From NCBI GenBank assembly GCA_947459245.1, contig CANHCV010000016.1, forward strand, positions 1 through 46,238: a stretch of 46,238 nucleotides of DNA, given 5' to 3'. Below are positions 2,533-44,879 of the stretch, one piece after another. Each line of letters opens with the position of its first letter. The first letter of the stretch is position 1. Under the pieces are notes generated by a model. That model made no database searches. It saw nothing but the letters and a program-made list of their open reading frames with translations, and was not told the DNA's origin. Both the position numbers and the translations under genes were made by a program. This stretch comes from Bacteroidota bacterium. Its GTDB lineage: Bacteria > Bacteroidota > Bacteroidia > UBA7662 > CANHCV01.

Positions 2533-3421
2533 ATTTTGAAATTTTATCCTTGTTTAAGGTATTCAACAACTTTTCTATTTGCAATTGTAAATCATCCATT
2601 TTTTTTTCGACCTCTTTGTTCTCGTTTACTTTTTGTGAACTTAACTTTTCTTGAATACTGGTTGTCATTACGGCTAAAAACACATTTAGTGTAATCATTA
2701 CGGAAAAAATGAAGAAAGAAACAAGGTAAAAATCAGTTACTATTTCATGCACACTGGTATATAATCTAAGTTCTTTATGTACATCAGCCCAACCATTTGT
2801 CATGATTTGAAACATACCCATCATGGCCTCATATAAGGTTGAATAGTTGATGCTATCGAATTTTTGGAAGCCGTATAAATTCATCCCTAAAATCGCATAA
2901 GTATACACCAATAGAAAGATTAAAATTAAAAAAATGGCAATCGTTGGAATAACAGCGGCAATCTTTCGTTCAATTCTTTTAATGTAATTCAACCCGCTGA
3001 ACAACCTGAAAATCCGGAATACTCTTAGCATTCTGAGAATCAAAATAATCTCAGGATGTTTTATGAAGTGTTCTGCAAAGGCAATCCAACTTGCAACAAC
3101 CAAAATAAGATCAAACGTAATCCAAAACCAAGTCTCTAAAGAATCAATGGTTTCAGCTATTTTTTTATTTTCTTTTCTGAAAAATTGAAAAAATACTTTT
3201 AAATCTCGAAATAATGTTTTTAAAGGTGATGAAAAAAATAAACGAATTGAAATTTCGTAAGTAAAAAATAAAACAAAAAGGGCATCAATAATATCAAAAT
3301 AAAATTTAAAGCTACTATTGTATTTAATTGCAGTTTCAATTCCTATGACAAAAGCATTAAATAAAATTACAAAGCTTGAAACTCTTTGAAGTGATTCAAG
3401 ATTATTAAACTTAATTCGCAT
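2531..3421 (-). CDS. Voltage-gated cation channel (bacterial NaV/ion transporter family), atypical filter
   Basis: 296-residue single-domain voltage-gated channel, expected to act as a tetramer in the inner membrane. Hydrophobic segments fit S1 (about 14-31), S2 (41-61), S3 (97-115), S4 (125-142), S5 (156-183) and S6 (229-256). S4 carries arginines at every third position (R130, R133, R136, R139) in LRMLRVFRIFRLF. The pore loop reads MFQIMTNGWADV, whereas bacterial sodium channels have FQ..TLESW: here one residue is missing between Thr and Trp and the acidic filter residue is absent. The C-terminus (256-292) is a charged coiled coil, as in NaChBac-type tetramers. The gene is clearly AT-rich against its neighbours and stands alone between unrelated genes, which suggests transfer. 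Ion selectivity is unknown. Confidence 0.85.
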   Translation of the reverse strand: MRIKFNNLESLQRVSSFVILFNAFVIGIETAIKYNSSFKFYFDIIDALFVLFFTYEISIRLFFSSPLKTLFRDLKVFFQFFRKENKKIAETIDSLETWFWITFDLILVVASWIAFAEHFIKHPEIILILRMLRVFRIFRLFSGLNYIKRIERKIAAVIPTIAIFLILIFLLVYTYAILGMNLYGFQKFDSINYSTLYEAMMGMFQIMTNGWADVHKELRLYTSVHEIVTDFYLVSFFIFSVMITLNVFLAVMTTSIQEKLSSQKVNENKEVEKKMDDLQLQIEKLLNTLNKDKISK

Positions 3422-3508
3422 AAAATGACTTTAGACCTTTTTTCATGCAAGATAATATCAGCTATTTGTTATGATATGCTTGTTAAAAAGGAAGTTTAAA
3501 AACAACCC

Positions 3509-3967
3509 TTAAAACTTAATCACTGCCGAATGCGGACGTCCGTGAACCAAAACGAATTCCTCCGCAGCTCTCAAGTTCAACGCACCGTCTTGGAACAACT
3601 GCGCTTTGCCAATCATTCGGGCAACTTTTTCGGTTTTGATGCCGGCAAAATCGACCTCGCAAATTTCACGAGTGGGTAAGAAAATCACTTCGTAATAAAC
3701 CACCCGGCCCTGCGGATTTGATTTCGAAATTTGCATCACCGAGTTGTAATCCCGCAGGTTTATGCGCATCACCTTGTTTCCCGATAAATCGAAAACGTCG
3801 TAATGACAATCTACTGCTCCAAATCCGCAATCGAACCGTTCTATTTTAAAGGCATCGATGCCGTTCACGGTTGCAATGTGGGATTCTTCGTTCCATTCCA
3901 CCTCGGTTTTTTGAGCGGAAGCAACGGAAACGAAAAGAACGAATAGGAAAGAAAAAAGGGTCTTCAT
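3509..3967 (-). CDS. Small secreted protein of unknown function
   Basis: 152 residues. The first 18 or so (MKTLFSFLFVLFVSVASA then Q) form a clear Sec signal peptide, so the product is periplasmic or outer-membrane associated. The rest is mixed beta-rich sequence with three cysteines (CGFGAVDC and one near residue 95), allowing a disulfide. I do not recognise a family. Its ATG overlaps the murI stop (ATGA arrangement), so it is the last gene of the murI end of the envelope cluster and probably translated by coupling. A role in the cell envelope is inferred from position and signal peptide only. Confidence 0.75.
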   Translation of the reverse strand: MKTLFSFLFVLFVSVASAQKTEVEWNEESHIATVNGIDAFKIERFDCGFGAVDCHYDVFDLSGNKVMRINLRDYNSVMQISKSNPQGRVVYYEVIFLPTREICEVDFAGIKTEKVARMIGKAQLFQDGALNLRAAEEFVLVHGRPHSAVIKF

Positions 3968-4764
3968 AATTTTTGAGCCTTGAGGAGAACATCGGTGCCG
4001 AAAAACAATTGGGTGGATTTTTTGAAGCTATCGGTTAAATCAGAAACAAAAAATTCGTGGGGCTCCGAATTGGATTCCGCCAACAAATCGAGATCGGTAA
4101 GGGTATTTTTCACGTGCTCGGCAACGATTTGAGCCGTGTCTAACACGGCCACTTCCCCCCCAAAATAATCGCGCACCTCGGAAGCGATGAGCGGATAGTG
4201 CGTGCAAGCCAAAGCAATCGCTTCAATTCCCCGCAAAACCGGATCGCTGAGGTAGCTTTTCAACACTCCTCGGCTAACGTCGGTGCCGGCAAAACCCTCT
4301 TCAATCATGGCTGCGAGGAGAGGCGTACTTTTCGGATGCACTTCGAGTCCGGCGGTGGGTTTCAACTTCTCCTGGAAAATACCGGAAGAGATGGTGGCCT
4401 TGGTGCCGATGATGCCTACGTGCTTGAATTTTTTGTGTTGGATGAAATCAACAACGGGGTCGATTACGTTGGTTACGGCAACGCCGTGGGCGGCACACAG
4501 TGCTCGAACGGATTCGTAGGCTGCGGCCGAGGCCGAATTGCACGCAATCACCAAATGCTTGATGCCTTTTTCCAAGAGAAAGAGGGTAATTTGTACGCTG
4601 TATTCGGTAATCAGGGATTTGGATTTTTCCCCATAAGGCAAATGAGCGGTGTCCCCAAAGTAGAGGAACCGCTCATTCGGTAAGGCCTTCGCCATCGCGC
4701 TGGCCACGGTTAATCCGCCAATTCCCGAATCGAAAATGCCGATGGGTTGTTGGGGTTGAACCAT
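3964..4764 (-). CDS. murI: Glutamate racemase
   Basis: Makes D-glutamate for peptidoglycan in the cytoplasm, without a cofactor. The 266-residue protein shows IGIFDSGIGGLTV with the first catalytic-site Asp and Ser, FGDTAHLPYGEKS, the first catalytic cysteine in ACNSASA (C75) and the second in LACTHYPL (C187). The usual ACNTAS is ACNSAS here, a conservative change. Length is normal. It follows the two ompH genes with a one-base gap to the nearer one and overlaps the secreted-protein gene downstream, matching the conserved Bacteroidota order bamA-ompH-ompH-murI. Confidence 0.96.
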   Translation of the reverse strand: MVQPQQPIGIFDSGIGGLTVASAMAKALPNERFLYFGDTAHLPYGEKSKSLITEYSVQITLFLLEKGIKHLVIACNSASAAAYESVRALCAAHGVAVTNVIDPVVDFIQHKKFKHVGIIGTKATISSGIFQEKLKPTAGLEVHPKSTPLLAAMIEEGFAGTDVSRGVLKSYLSDPVLRGIEAIALACTHYPLIASEVRDYFGGEVAVLDTAQIVAEHVKNTLTDLDLLAESNSEPHEFFVSDLTDSFKKSTQLFFGTDVLLKAQKL

Positions 4765-4765
4765 T

Positions 4766-5323
4766 TTATTTTTTTCCTCCTTTGGCTGGAGCTGGTTTAT
4801 CGGTTGCTGGTTTTGGATCAGCTGCGATTTTCAATTTCACCTTTACTTTATCGGAAAGATCTTCTGAATCTTTTGCGTAAAGCAAAACACCAACCGAGCT
4901 ATCGAAAACGTAGGTGTATCCACCTTCTTTGGCTACTTCTTCAATGGCAGCATTGATTTTATCAACCAAAGGCTTCAACAATTCTTGTTTTTTGTTCTGA
5001 ATGTCTTCGTTGGCCAACGATTCGAATTCTTGCATGCGCATTTGAAGACCTTCTACATCTTTGCGCTTCAATTCCAACAAAGTTTTGGATGTTGCTGGGT
5101 TCTTGGACATGCTTTCGTACTCGCCCATTTTGTTTTCCAATTCTCCCAAAAGGACTTTGTAATCGTCTTTGATTTGCTTGTCGTAATTGATCAAGGAATC
5201 TTGGGCGAGTTTATATCCTGGAAGAACAGCAATTAAATCGGATGAATTCAAGTGGCCTAATTTCACTTGGGCGAAAGCACCGGTACTGAATGCGATAAAC
5301 GCGAGAATAATGAGTTTTTTCAT
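4766..5323 (-). CDS. OmpH/Skp family periplasmic chaperone (second copy in the operon)
   Basis: Predicted periplasmic holdase that carries unfolded outer-membrane proteins to the BAM complex. 185 residues: signal peptide MKKLIILAFIAFSTGAFA, short beta segment VKLGHLNSSDLIAVLPG, then the long helical arms (about 40-120) rich in Lys/Glu with FESLANEDIQNKKQELL, and a return strand YTYVFDSS. The tail is Pro/Ala/Lys-rich and low-complexity. It lies 12 bases downstream of a related gene and one base upstream of murI. Tandem ompH genes next to bamA are normal in this phylum. Confidence 0.88.
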   Translation of the reverse strand: MKKLIILAFIAFSTGAFAQVKLGHLNSSDLIAVLPGYKLAQDSLINYDKQIKDDYKVLLGELENKMGEYESMSKNPATSKTLLELKRKDVEGLQMRMQEFESLANEDIQNKKQELLKPLVDKINAAIEEVAKEGGYTYVFDSSVGVLLYAKDSEDLSDKVKVKLKIAADPKPATDKPAPAKGGKK

Positions 5324-5335
5324 GTTATGATTGAG

Positions 5336-5854
5336 TTATTTTTTACCTGCGATTCCCATCATTTCCAACACTTCATCGCTTTTATCGAATTTGGTATTGG
5401 AGTACAGCATCAGCAATTCTCCCGATTTATCGAACACGAAATCGTATTGTTTTTCGCGAGCCAATCGTTGAACGGCGTTGTATACTTTATCTTGAATGGG
5501 TTTGATCAATTCTTGTTTCTTTTTGAAGAGGTCTCCTTCGTAGCCAAAACGTTTTTGTTGAAGATCACTCAACTCTTTTTCTTTGAGTTCGATTTCTGCT
5601 TTTCTTCTTTTTAGCATCTCTTCGGTAAGAAGGGCTTTTTCGGCTTCTAGGGTTCGGTACATTTTGGTGATGTCGCCCGTACGCGTTTCAATTTCTTTGG
5701 CCCAAGTTTCGGAAAGGGCGTCGACTTGCTTCTGTGCCGCACTGTATTCGGGCATTTTATTCAAGATGTACTCGGAGCTCACGTAGCACCAACGCTGGGC
5801 GGAGGCCCACTGGGCACCGAAGAAGAAAAGTGCAACGAGAAGAAGTTTTTTCAT
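5336..5854 (-). CDS. OmpH/Skp family periplasmic chaperone (first copy in the operon)
   Basis: Same predicted role as the gene that follows it: binding unfolded outer-membrane proteins in the periplasm. The 172-residue protein starts at the ATG at 5854, because this gives a signal peptide (MKKLLLVALFFFGAQWASA) and places the start one base after the bamA stop. A longer frame from a GTG at 5977 would overlap bamA and add sequence without a signal. Landmarks are YVSSEYILNKMPEY, long charged helices, and KKKQELIKPIQDKVYNAV with YDFVFDKSG at the end of the arms. The two OmpH copies are clearly diverged from each other. Confidence 0.88.
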   Translation of the reverse strand: MKKLLLVALFFFGAQWASAQRWCYVSSEYILNKMPEYSAAQKQVDALSETWAKEIETRTGDITKMYRTLEAEKALLTEEMLKRRKAEIELKEKELSDLQQKRFGYEGDLFKKKQELIKPIQDKVYNAVQRLAREKQYDFVFDKSGELLMLYSNTKFDKSDEVLEMMGIAGKK

Positions 5855-5855
5855 C

Positions 5856-8381
5856 TTAAAAAGTTTGACCAATACTGATGTGCAAATTACCTCGTTTGGT
5901 GATGTTGAAATTCGGATTATTGTCGAAACCGTAACCCCAATCCACCCCAAGAAGTCCAAACATGGGCAAGAAAACACGAATTCCCGCTCCGGCCGATTTC
6001 ATGTTATTGAAAGGTTGGAAGGAGCGAATGTTGGCAAAGTTATTACCCGCTTCCAAAAATCCCAAAATGTAAACGCTGGCCTGCGGATTTAATGATACCG
6101 GATACCTCAATTCAGCTGTAAATTTCTGGAACATTTTTCCTCCAATGGGATTGATGTTCACGCGAGGACCAATGGAATTATCGGCATAACCCCTCAAACG
6201 AATCAACTCACGATCGTCCAAATTAAATCCGGTTAATCCAGAACCGCCCACGAAGAATCTTCCAAAAGGTTGCTCTATGTTCCTGGAGTAGCCTCCTAAA
6301 AATCCGAGTTGGACCTGAGTGGCCAACACGAATTTACCGGTAAGGGAAGTGTACCACGCCCCGTCGAAACGCCATTTGTGGTATTCAATCCACTTGTACC
6401 GATCTTCTGCCGATGCCTTTTCAAAAGGAACGTCGGTAAATAAGCTGCGAGGGGGAGTCATGGCCAACGAAAGGGTAATGTTACTTCCGTACGTTGGGAA
6501 GATGGGGTTATCCCCCACCGAATTTCGGCTCAACGTTTCGCGAATGAAGATGGAATTGGCCGAGCCGTTCGACAAAAACGCATTGATGGATCCGTATTTG
6601 TTAATTTCGTAGCGTTGGTAGTTGATGGAGTGAAGGATGTTGAAGAAATCATCCGGTTTTTTCAATCGTTTTCCCAAGGAAATACTCGCTCCATAAATGG
6701 TTAAACTCCCGTGATTGGGATTGAGAACTCGATTTCCAAGAGAATCGTCGGTGTATTTGGCAATTCCATTCAATTGTTGGGAGCTGTACAAGCTAACGCC
6801 GAAGGAATTGGGTTTTTTGCCTCCCAACCAAGGTTCGGTGAAAGACAGGTTGTAGGAACGGAAAAATAGAGCATTGGCCACCGCGCGAATCCCCAATTTC
6901 TGTCCGTCACCCGTTGGCACTGGAGCCCATTTCTTGGGATTCAAGGCATTTTTTGCTGAAAAGTTGTTCAAGGTTAATCCCAGTGATCCCACGAAAAATC
7001 GTCCACCGAATCCACCCGATAACTCCACTTGGTCCGACGATTTTTCAACCACCGTGTACTCCAAATCTACCGTTCCCGTTGCAGGATTGGGGTAAGGAAC
7101 GATGTTGATTTGTTCGGGATCGAAGAAACCCAACTGCCCCAATTCTCGGGTAGTACGAATGATATCGTTTCGGGAGAATTTCTGACCGGGTTTGGTGCGC
7201 AATTCGCGCATGATCACGTGGTCGTTGGTTTTTTCGTTTCCTTTGATGGTGATTTTATTGATGGTCGCCTGGGTTCCTTCGCTGATGTTCACCATCAAAT
7301 CGATGGAATCTTCACCAACGGGAATTTGTGTTGGATTCAATTGGAAAAACAAGTACCCGTTGTCCATGTACAAAGAGGTGATATCCCTACCACTTTGGTC
7401 CATGTACAAGCGCTGATCCAACAAACTTTGGTTGAAGACATCTCCTTTTTTCACACCCAAAATGCTTTCAAGCAGCGAATCGGGGTAAATGGTATTTCCG
7501 TCAACGGTTACATTTCTGAAGAAGAATTGGCGGCCTTCATCAATTTTCACTAGAACTCGAAGGCGATTATCGGAAATCGGGAAAAAGGTATCTTGAACAA
7601 TCGCCGCATTGAGGTAGCCCAGGTTTTTGTATTTCCCAATGAGTTTTTCCTGGTCCTCAACAAATTCACCTTGGGAGAACTTGGATCCACGGAAAACATT
7701 CCACCAAACGTAAGGTTTCACCTTTTTGAAGGTTCTCAACGCTTTGGCTGAAGTGATAGCGGTATTTCCTACGAAAACAACTTCACCGATGCGGTACTTG
7801 TTTCCGGGGTTCACTTTAATTTTCAAGAAAACGGCGTTCGTAGCGGTGGTATCGGGTACTTCTTCGTAAGCCACATCGATGCTGTAGTATCCCTTTTTGA
7901 GGTAGTGGCTTCGAATGAGGTTGGTGCAACTTTGCTTTACGTTTTCGGTGAGAACAGCGCCTTTGTACTTTTTAATATCGTCGTTGATATCGTCAACATC
8001 TCCTTTTTTCAAACTGCTGTTGAAAGCGAATTTGGAAATTTTCGGTTTTTCTTGGAGCACGTAGGTGAGGTAAATTTGATCGCCAACGATGCTGTCGACC
8101 CGAATTTTCACATCTCCAAAAAGGCCCTGTTTCCACAGCTTTTTGATGGCATTGGGCAACTCTTCTCCTGGAATTTTGATGGTTTTCCCGGGGCGAACAC
8201 CGGAAATGATGATGAGAATATCGGGGTCTAAAAACTGGGTTCCTTCTACTTTTACGGCTGCAACTTTGTATTCCTTGGCGGTTTCTGAGAAATTATACAA
8301 CGTATCATTCTGCGCCTGGGAAGGCGATGTAAAAAGGATGGTAAGCGCGAGTGAGGAAAGTAGGAGAAAAAGGGTTTTCAT
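5856..8381 (-). CDS. bamA: Outer-membrane protein assembly factor BamA
   Basis: Core of the BAM machine that folds beta-barrel proteins into the outer membrane. 841 residues from the ATG at 8381; a TTG one codon upstream is less likely, since the ATG overlaps the uppS TGA. A signal peptide (ends PSQAQ) is followed by about 400 residues of repeated POTRA modules (e.g. KVEGTQFLDPDIL, VVFVGNTAITSAKALRTF, KITIKGNEKTNDHVIMRELRTKPGQ), then the 16-strand barrel with GGSGLTGFNLDDRELIRLRGY, which contains the RGY-like lid-lock motif, and ends in the aromatic HISIGQTF. It is adjacent to uppS and two Skp-like chaperones, a functionally coherent set. Confidence 0.95.
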   Translation of the reverse strand: MKTLFLLLSSLALTILFTSPSQAQNDTLYNFSETAKEYKVAAVKVEGTQFLDPDILIIISGVRPGKTIKIPGEELPNAIKKLWKQGLFGDVKIRVDSIVGDQIYLTYVLQEKPKISKFAFNSSLKKGDVDDINDDIKKYKGAVLTENVKQSCTNLIRSHYLKKGYYSIDVAYEEVPDTTATNAVFLKIKVNPGNKYRIGEVVFVGNTAITSAKALRTFKKVKPYVWWNVFRGSKFSQGEFVEDQEKLIGKYKNLGYLNAAIVQDTFFPISDNRLRVLVKIDEGRQFFFRNVTVDGNTIYPDSLLESILGVKKGDVFNQSLLDQRLYMDQSGRDITSLYMDNGYLFFQLNPTQIPVGEDSIDLMVNISEGTQATINKITIKGNEKTNDHVIMRELRTKPGQKFSRNDIIRTTRELGQLGFFDPEQINIVPYPNPATGTVDLEYTVVEKSSDQVELSGGFGGRFFVGSLGLTLNNFSAKNALNPKKWAPVPTGDGQKLGIRAVANALFFRSYNLSFTEPWLGGKKPNSFGVSLYSSQQLNGIAKYTDDSLGNRVLNPNHGSLTIYGASISLGKRLKKPDDFFNILHSINYQRYEINKYGSINAFLSNGSANSIFIRETLSRNSVGDNPIFPTYGSNITLSLAMTPPRSLFTDVPFEKASAEDRYKWIEYHKWRFDGAWYTSLTGKFVLATQVQLGFLGGYSRNIEQPFGRFFVGGSGLTGFNLDDRELIRLRGYADNSIGPRVNINPIGGKMFQKFTAELRYPVSLNPQASVYILGFLEAGNNFANIRSFQPFNNMKSAGAGIRVFLPMFGLLGVDWGYGFDNNPNFNITKRGNLHISIGQTF

Positions 8382-44489: not shown

Positions 44490-44581
44490 AGATGCCGGTT
44501 GTGGAAAATGGATTCAATGCCCTACAAACCATCTTGTTAGCCGAAGCTTCCTGATTTTAATCAACATCGTTTCCACCGAGG

Positions 44582-44611
44582 TTGAAAATTTAACTTCTTT
44601 CAATAGTTTTG
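44582..44611 (+). promoter_or_regulatory. Consensus promoter of the 61-residue peptide gene
   Basis: TTG (44582-44584), a 19-base spacer and TAGTTTTG (44604-44611). This is the best full match to the Bacteroidota consensus in the window and leaves a leader of about 18 bases before the ATG at 44634. Confidence 0.75.
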
Positions 44612-44633
44612 TTATCCTCAAAAACACACAACA

Positions 44634-44819
44634 ATGAACAACGCTACCATGGCCCCCCAAAGCATTGATGCTCAAATACTTGCCCTTGAAAGTCAGAAGA
44701 CAGGCAACATGATGAACGACCTTGAAATTGAGGATCAGATTCGAGATCTTAAGCTTCAAGCTGGATTAGCAAAACGCCCCGAGCACAGCCAATTTGAGTG
44801 CTTCGGTTGCGGATCTTAA
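44634..44819 (+). CDS. Free-standing 61-residue peptide with Cys-x-x-Cys tail
   Basis: I do not recognise a family. The protein has no signal peptide or membrane segment. Residues 8-45 are helix-prone and polar (IDAQILALESQK, LEIEDQIRDLKLQAG); the end is PEHSQFECFGCGS, with the only two cysteines as C-F-G-C three residues from the C-terminus. It is bracketed by a consensus promoter and an intrinsic terminator, so it is a monocistronic unit, expected to be well expressed. Options: a metal-binding or redox small protein, a regulator, or a modified-peptide (RiPP) precursor with leader and core; no modification enzyme is next to it. An ATG at codon 6 is an alternative start. Confidence 0.7.
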   Translation: MNNATMAPQSIDAQILALESQKTGNMMNDLEIEDQIRDLKLQAGLAKRPEHSQFECFGCGS

Positions 44820-44847
44820 TAACCATCATTTTTGTTTCATAGAACTT

Positions 44848-44879
44848 ACCACGGTCTTTTCGGAGATCGTGGTTTTTTT
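44848..44879 (+). terminator. Intrinsic terminator of the small peptide gene
   Basis: ACCACG (44848-44853) pairs with CGTGGT (44868-44873), with an inner TCT/AGA pairing, then a T run. It lies 28 bases after the stop. Confidence 0.88.

Follow-up and report, generated by a model that had tools for sequence, protein, structure and literature searches.

A family of small proteins with a conserved two-cysteine C-terminal tail in Bacteroidota genomes and phages

The 61-codon frame at 44634-44819 is, with near certainty, a real and conserved gene of an unnamed small-protein family that is patchy in its bacterial hosts and accessory in phages. Almost all copies close with one and the same tail containing two cysteines, and this points to a small helper protein, metal-binding or thiol-based, and not to a secreted peptide.

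The gene and its site

The window, the whole stretch of 46,238 nucleotides that was analysed, carries the gene near its right end, between folC on the left (TIGR01499, 355 bits against a cut-off of 163) and gldA on the right (TIGR03522, 397 bits, slightly below the cut-off of 403). Beyond gldA follows gldF (TIGR03518), truncated by the window end, and all three genes are on the same strand as the 61-codon gene. The sequence-only reading of this DNA had described a stand-alone unit of promoter, 61-codon frame and terminator between folC and gldA, an arrangement that the sequence confirms. Its parts are as follows.

44556-44633, forward strand: nearly invariant leader region, comprising promoter and 5' untranslated region (genus comparison)
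44570-44587: inverted repeat TTTCCACC-GA-GGTTGAAA, 7 of 8 positions paired, overlapping the -33 element
44582-44611, forward strand: Bacteroidota-type promoter TTG-19-TAGTTTTG (sequence match to consensus; genus conservation)
44634-44819, forward strand: single-copy small-protein gene, 61 aa (open reading frame translation; dN/dS; family alignment)
44848-44879, forward strand: intrinsic terminator with an 11-pair stem and a T run, hairpin at 44848-44873, conserved in three species

The frame encodes MNNATMAPQSIDAQILALESQKTGNMMNDLEIEDQIRDLKLQAGLAKRPEHSQFECFGCGS, a product with the C-terminus FECFGCGS. Its likely start is the ATG at 44634; the next in-frame ATG reads TTG in one relative of the genus. 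The promoter, which follows the Bacteroidota consensus, consists of TTG (44582-44584), a 19-nt spacer and TAGTTTTG (44604-44611) and is kept across the genus, with a single spacer base differing in one relative. By themselves, the promoter match and the frame length are near chance and the anatomy proves little: the window has one exact TTG-19-TANNTTTG where 100 first-order simulations yield 0.9 on average, and when gaps of the same size and composition were simulated 2000 times, 32% contained, on either strand, a frame of 61 aa or longer that starts with ATG. Since anatomy alone is near chance, the status of the gene was decided by conservation.

Two other sampled genomes of the genus carry the gene at the same place, in the same frame and with the same tail, at protein identities of 92% and 82%. 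The dN/dS values of the three genus pairs (0.119, 0.048 and 0.105, with synonymous sites nearly saturated in one of the pairs) indicate purifying selection, and the last 15 codons hold 1 and 2 nonsynonymous changes in the two relatives compared with the window. In the 78 nt before the start (44556-44633) the same comparison gives 1 and 0 differences, below the count for the coding part. Given the low dN/dS and the near-invariant 78 nt, both the product and the leader region are under constraint. In this host the gene occurs once and has a promoter-like and a terminator-like site to itself, no second copy being present among the matches of the profile and relative searches in the window's genome.

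The inverted repeat at 44570-44587 is conserved within the genus and might serve as an operator for the 61-aa gene alone. A regulon acting through it was considered and rejected: the 26-nt stretch matches the genome once at up to 3 mismatches, and the repeat pattern TTTCNACCNNGGTNGAAA has its own site as sole zero-mismatch match. Judged by eye, terminator-like hairpins also appear in many of the inspected downstream stretches of host loci.

Conservation and predicted fold of the product

Two parts of the product stand out.

44658-44759, forward strand: predicted helical hairpin, residues 9-20 and 26-42 (AlphaFold2)
44799-44816, forward strand: C-terminal tail C-F-G-C-G-S, with Cys, Cys, Gly and Ser invariant in the host alignment; predicted as low-confidence coil, pLDDT about 50

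In the host alignment (A3, 38 distinct host sequences) the invariant positions are L18, I36 and C56-x-x-C59-G60-S61; M1 is invariant as well, starts having been chosen as ATG. The CxxCG motif is thus present in 38 of 38 host rows, and the Cys-x-x-Cys that the sequence-only reading had placed at the very end of the protein proves to be an invariant pair. In an alignment of 47 rows drawn from hosts and phages, the Leu, the Ile and both Cys are invariant, and G and S are conserved in at least 90%. The exact end is not absolute, as one phage tail reads CVGCSG and two end in CGA. The polar helical part proposed earlier corresponds to two helices in the AlphaFold2 model, which with the 38-row alignment reaches a block pLDDT of 87-89 over residues 11-40; this predicted hairpin is a feature of two models, that of the window protein (pLDDT 70.6) and that of a phage member (78.8), and the tail is of low confidence in both.

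A divergent phage subfamily (L237, L238, L248 and L251) has a different first-helix region and retains mainly helix 2 and the tail, keeping a segment like ADKIHNxxMKLxGVKPxDxxxDCIGCGS. From these phages and from the tail comparisons, the C-terminal half (helix 2 plus CxxCGS) is the part best held by selection. Within the host family f21, four genomes (G038, G256, G280 and G394) share with the phages L400 and L405 a variant linker followed by a D-x-C-x-x-CGS tail, and other f21 hosts carry the common linker and tail form. Such sharing is what one would see if phage copies had to suit a partner particular to their host, or if the gene had been transferred recently.

Distribution among bacteria

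Homologues were sought, as the sequence-only reading had proposed, and are found in Bacteroidota as well as in phages. Among relatives, 5 of 60 genomes have the family: all three genus members and two genomes that are less closely related. The 18 remaining genomes sampled from this order gave no match. A profile search of the class matched 28 of 395 genomes, 26 of them credibly; the two excluded matches are partial and lie within frames of about 1100 residues, and such partial matches inside long frames were not counted as family members. With a wider second profile, 39 of 395 genomes in a class sample of the same size gave matches, 26 of which reach the tail, the remainder consisting of two distant sequences (G228 and G255, with tails CKIC and CINCSG), an interrupted one (G300) and ten partial matches in long frames. 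The phylum sample yielded 9 of 395 genomes, two of the nine matches being partial. In the taxonomic family of G113 the gene is present in 57 of 148 genomes, among them G838, which has it only as four interrupted copies, and a named collection contributed 18 loci, all under Bacteroidota names, including Echinicola, Algoriphagus, Salibacter, Catalimonadaceae and Crocinitomicaceae. The family is therefore patchy and absent from most hosts sampled.

The four copies of G838 (L069-L072) are scattered, each broken by a stop or a frame change, and end in ECEACGS or KCEACGS, as decaying paralogues. In G038, two near-identical copies (L006 and L007) lie near contig ends and differ between the cysteines (CLSCGS and CLYCGS), representing either a recent duplication or the assembly of two strains. 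A supposed fusion in L065 was discarded, the long open frame there looking only like the frame prolonged in the upstream direction.

The genes beside the host copies point to no pathway. Neighbourhoods differ by group; among clusters built from frames of 90 aa or more, the one with the widest sharing, a mixture of GTPases, reaches 7 of 40 loci, many of which were read with just 1.5 kb on each side. Three loci, L020 (from Algoriphagus), L032 and L037, have members of a single cluster no more than about 15 nt downstream of the peptide gene, possibly in one operon. In L020 this gene (6001-6834) is a pseudouridine synthase whose nearest named model is RluE, below the model cut-off. MnmE adjoins the peptide gene in L010 and what is presumably an Era-like GTPase in L006; these three kinds of neighbour are leads only.

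Phage copies and their gene contexts

A tblastn search of 50,697 GenBank phage records did not find the family, and 72,556 plasmid records gave two matches, both phage-like. These two (L067 and L068; NZ_CP040811.1 and CP045836.1) are circular "plasmids" of 66-67 kb with the same peptide and nearly the same positions of surrounding genes, one of them with an annotated terminase, and perhaps represent one Bacteroidota phage contaminating both assemblies. In IMG/VR, the host profile identified 99 related stretches, of which 80 were kept; together with a plasmid-labelled record they hold 50 products that are distinct in the last 58 residues. A second IMG/VR scan with the wider profile gave 114 stretches, of which 80 were kept, many repeating the first scan.

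The 81 loci were sorted by the nearest shared cluster within 3 kb, with names taken from one representative per cluster.

Context 1, 44 of 81 loci: between an unannotated gene and c1/portal
Context 2, 17 of 81 loci: near a GroES-like gene and TerL
Context 3, 3 of 81 loci: near GroEL
Contexts 4 and 5, 4 and 2 of 81 loci: near two TerL types
Context 6, 2 of 81 loci: near an exonuclease
Context 7, 3 of 81 loci: near the unannotated gene c63
Remaining, 6 of 81 loci: other contexts

Phage copies thus occur in at least seven gene contexts. The second of these looks crAss-like, and the second TerL type (cluster c27) is presumably a TerL. Nearly all flanking frames of at least 70 aa (155 of 157) are on the strand of the peptide, which places it in co-directional clusters.

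For context 1, 80 contigs found via a protein of the region comprise 16 with the peptide (8 under earlier ids and 8 newly viewed, six of the latter known from the first IMG/VR scan), 48 with an empty slot and 16 in which the slot is cut off or unread. The genes flanking the empty slots are only -21 to 103 nt apart, too short for the peptide, which makes the gene optional in this context. Because most sampled hosts lack it, as do the majority of phages in which these neighbours occur, the gene is dispensable. An N-terminal cysteine pair of the upstream protein c2 in this main phage group was rejected as a peptide-linked feature, being present beside the empty slot too.

The phages carrying the family probably infect Bacteroidota, since they share it with members of this phylum. 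The host-phage tree (89 rows by 57 columns) needs at least 10 label changes against 28.9 in shuffles, but well-supported branches force only 1, and the tree gives no direction of exchange.

Possible function

The explanation tentatively preferred, somewhat short of probable, is that the protein would combine a helical hairpin with a CxxCG metal (zinc) knuckle at its C-terminus and either oligomerise or dock on a partner in the host; hosts would use it, and phages would bring it along as an accessory gene. The CxxCG motif makes up half of a zinc-knuckle site, and where such a half stands alone the rest usually comes from another chain. Because the terminal CxxCG may be half of a zinc-ribbon knuckle, the protein could form a homo-oligomer sharing a Cys4 zinc site, or its tail could dock on a host partner, with the second helix and the tail as the putative working surface. 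With a copy of its own, a phage would ensure that the host partner stays usable, probably in the phase of packaging and particle assembly, which is proposed because of the position of the phage gene among its neighbours; a chaperonin as this partner is a lead only. The invariant C, C, G, S and I36, the hairpin models and the purifying selection all count for this reading, as do the divergent phage subfamily, the co-directional phage clusters, the linker and tail variant common to f21 hosts and phages, and the slot that is filled in some phage contigs and empty in others. Against it stand the low confidence of the tail in both models, the distant possible members ending in CKIC or CINCSG, the phage tails with CGA or CSG, host neighbours that suggest no pathway, and the absence of the gene from most hosts, from most phages of like gene order and from the GenBank phage records; and the CxxC pair could equally be redox-active.

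This last point leads to a doubtful alternative, a thiol-redox or sulfur/metal carrier in which a flexible C-terminal cysteine pair would act as a swinging arm passing electrons, sulfur or a metal ion to a partner, as C-terminal cysteine arms are known from DsrC/TusE and the large subunit of ribonucleotide reductase. Two invariant terminal cysteines on a low-confidence, possibly flexible linker are consistent with such an arm, as is the accessory distribution in hosts and phages, and in one phage locus (L392) the next gene matches phrog_3704, a PHROG named ferredoxin. The neighbours, however, share no redox partner, and a strict glycine after the second cysteine is more typical of metal knuckles. 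The metal-binding tail and the redox peptide, two of the three options offered by the sequence-only reading, are the ones favoured, and the third, the peptide precursor, is best given up.

An extension of the preferred knuckle reading to a whole class is rather unlikely: phage- and host-borne "zinc-tail" adaptors of Bacteroidota would act on a core host machine, possibly the assembly chaperonin, having been picked up separately by several kinds of phage and matched to the host variant.

A narrower proposal, that the peptide is a chaperonin-linked cofactor of phage particle assembly working with GroEL/GroES on virion proteins, appears unlikely. The proximity is real in one broad phage group: the 17 loci of context 2 have TerL and a GroES-like gene within 3 kb (the one GroES-like member scanned matches phrog_13932), and in the 3 loci of context 3 the peptide lies about 410-435 nt upstream of GroEL. 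It also lies 37 nt before a weak GroES-like match in L385 (PHROG E 2.5e-4, no Pfam match). Of 564 loci found with the GroES-like protein as query, 80 were kept; the peptide is in 6 of these, five times directly upstream with a gap of 0-13 nt, and the other 74 show no peptide. Cpn60 matches 6 of 45 phage records and Cpn10 matches 5, and all of these (6 of 6 and 5 of 5) are peptide-bearing; the peptide-free records among the 45 all come from the main group, so these figures do not bear on an association. The association is missing in the largest phage group (44 loci), in which neither Cpn10 nor Cpn60 matches any of 10 longer peptide-bearing records or any of 14 records without the peptide in the stretch read, an absence that weighs little as many phage records are fragments. 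Several other phage contexts also lack a chaperonin gene, chaperonin genes do not adjoin the host copies, and the chaperonin phages may be one lineage. Four phage contigs (L106 at 3345-5397, L115, L116 and L147) have their own GroEL, followed at some distance by a GroES-like gene in L106, L115 and L116.

It is distinctly unlikely that the gene serves phage anti-defence or host takeover, whether captured by some hosts or host-derived. Its accessory nature, the many gene contexts, the patchiness in hosts and the degenerate copies in G838 would fit such a role, but most positions are near portal, terminase or chaperonin genes, with the two exonuclease loci as exception, and promoter, terminator and synteny are conserved in the genus of the window.

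A ribosomally made precursor of leader and modified core, as which the sequence-only reading had also considered the product, is highly improbable despite its shortness, leader-like helical part and two terminal cysteines: the would-be core is the least variable part of the host alignment, invariant in all 38 distinct host sequences and nearly so in phages; the genome matches contain one copy and none of the paralogues with variable C-termini that the reading had suggested looking for; no maturation enzyme adjoins the gene, which is flanked by folC, gldA and gldF; and at most 7 of 40 host loci share any neighbour, phage copies lying near portal, terminase and chaperonin genes.

Comparison with known families

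In agreement with the earlier statement that no named family fits, the window protein matches no Pfam (up to E 10), NCBIfam or PHROG model. The 38 host members give scattered weak matches, the best being Pox_A_type_inc in Pfam (E 5.6e-4, 7 members), the zinc ribbon CdsZ in NCBIfam (0.021, 1 member; the commonest there is the ferredoxin PRK06273, 6 members, 0.041) and phrog_5105 in PHROG (0.002, 5 members). Solved structures and folds returned weak helical matches only, including ribosomal protein chains at E 6 to 9. Judged by titles and abstract openings, no paper among the matches in the open literature concerns the family.

Three known systems invite comparison. The N-terminal coiled coil of GreA/GreB (PF03449) has an acidic GD... 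tip that looks similar by eye; kinship was rejected, as 30 GreA proteins from relatives set against 85 family rows gave an hhalign score of 14.6, exceeded by 2 of 60 column-shuffled controls and by the reversed control, with other residues aligned. RNA polymerase factors of the DksA/TraR type resemble the family in their small size, partial helicity, CxxC motif and occurrence in both hosts and mobile elements. They have a four-cysteine zinc finger, whereas the family has two conserved cysteines only, and membership was likewise rejected. Spy, a periplasmic chaperone, is matched weakly by the profile (best E = 8e-4); the match spans 32 positions and ends at profile position 36 of 57, leaving the rest of helix 2 and the tail uncovered.

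Closer likenesses come from phage and phage-like records. The hypothetical protein WP_139535961.1, from one of the phage-like "plasmid" records, ends in FECFGCGS as the window protein does, with 65% identity to the consensus query; the same peptide is in the second record, and the two are labelled Escherichia fergusonii and Lysinibacillus pakistanensis. Two uncharacterised viral proteins from BFVD look like members when compared with the model of a phage member: A0A1B1INU2 (58 aa; Foldseek probability 1.00, 40% identity over 52 columns, E only 0.05) and A0A6J5N4J0 of an uncultured Caudovirales phage (64 aa; probability 0.99, 27% over 56 columns, E only 0.11). Where bacteria and their phages have a small gene in common, it often leads to a host machine over which a phage needs control. 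The present family makes for a compact test, having two cysteines, a single helix and carriers in culture (Echinicola and Salibacter strains with names), and it would also give annotation a family for a set of small proteins now called "hypothetical" in Bacteroidota genomes and phage contigs.
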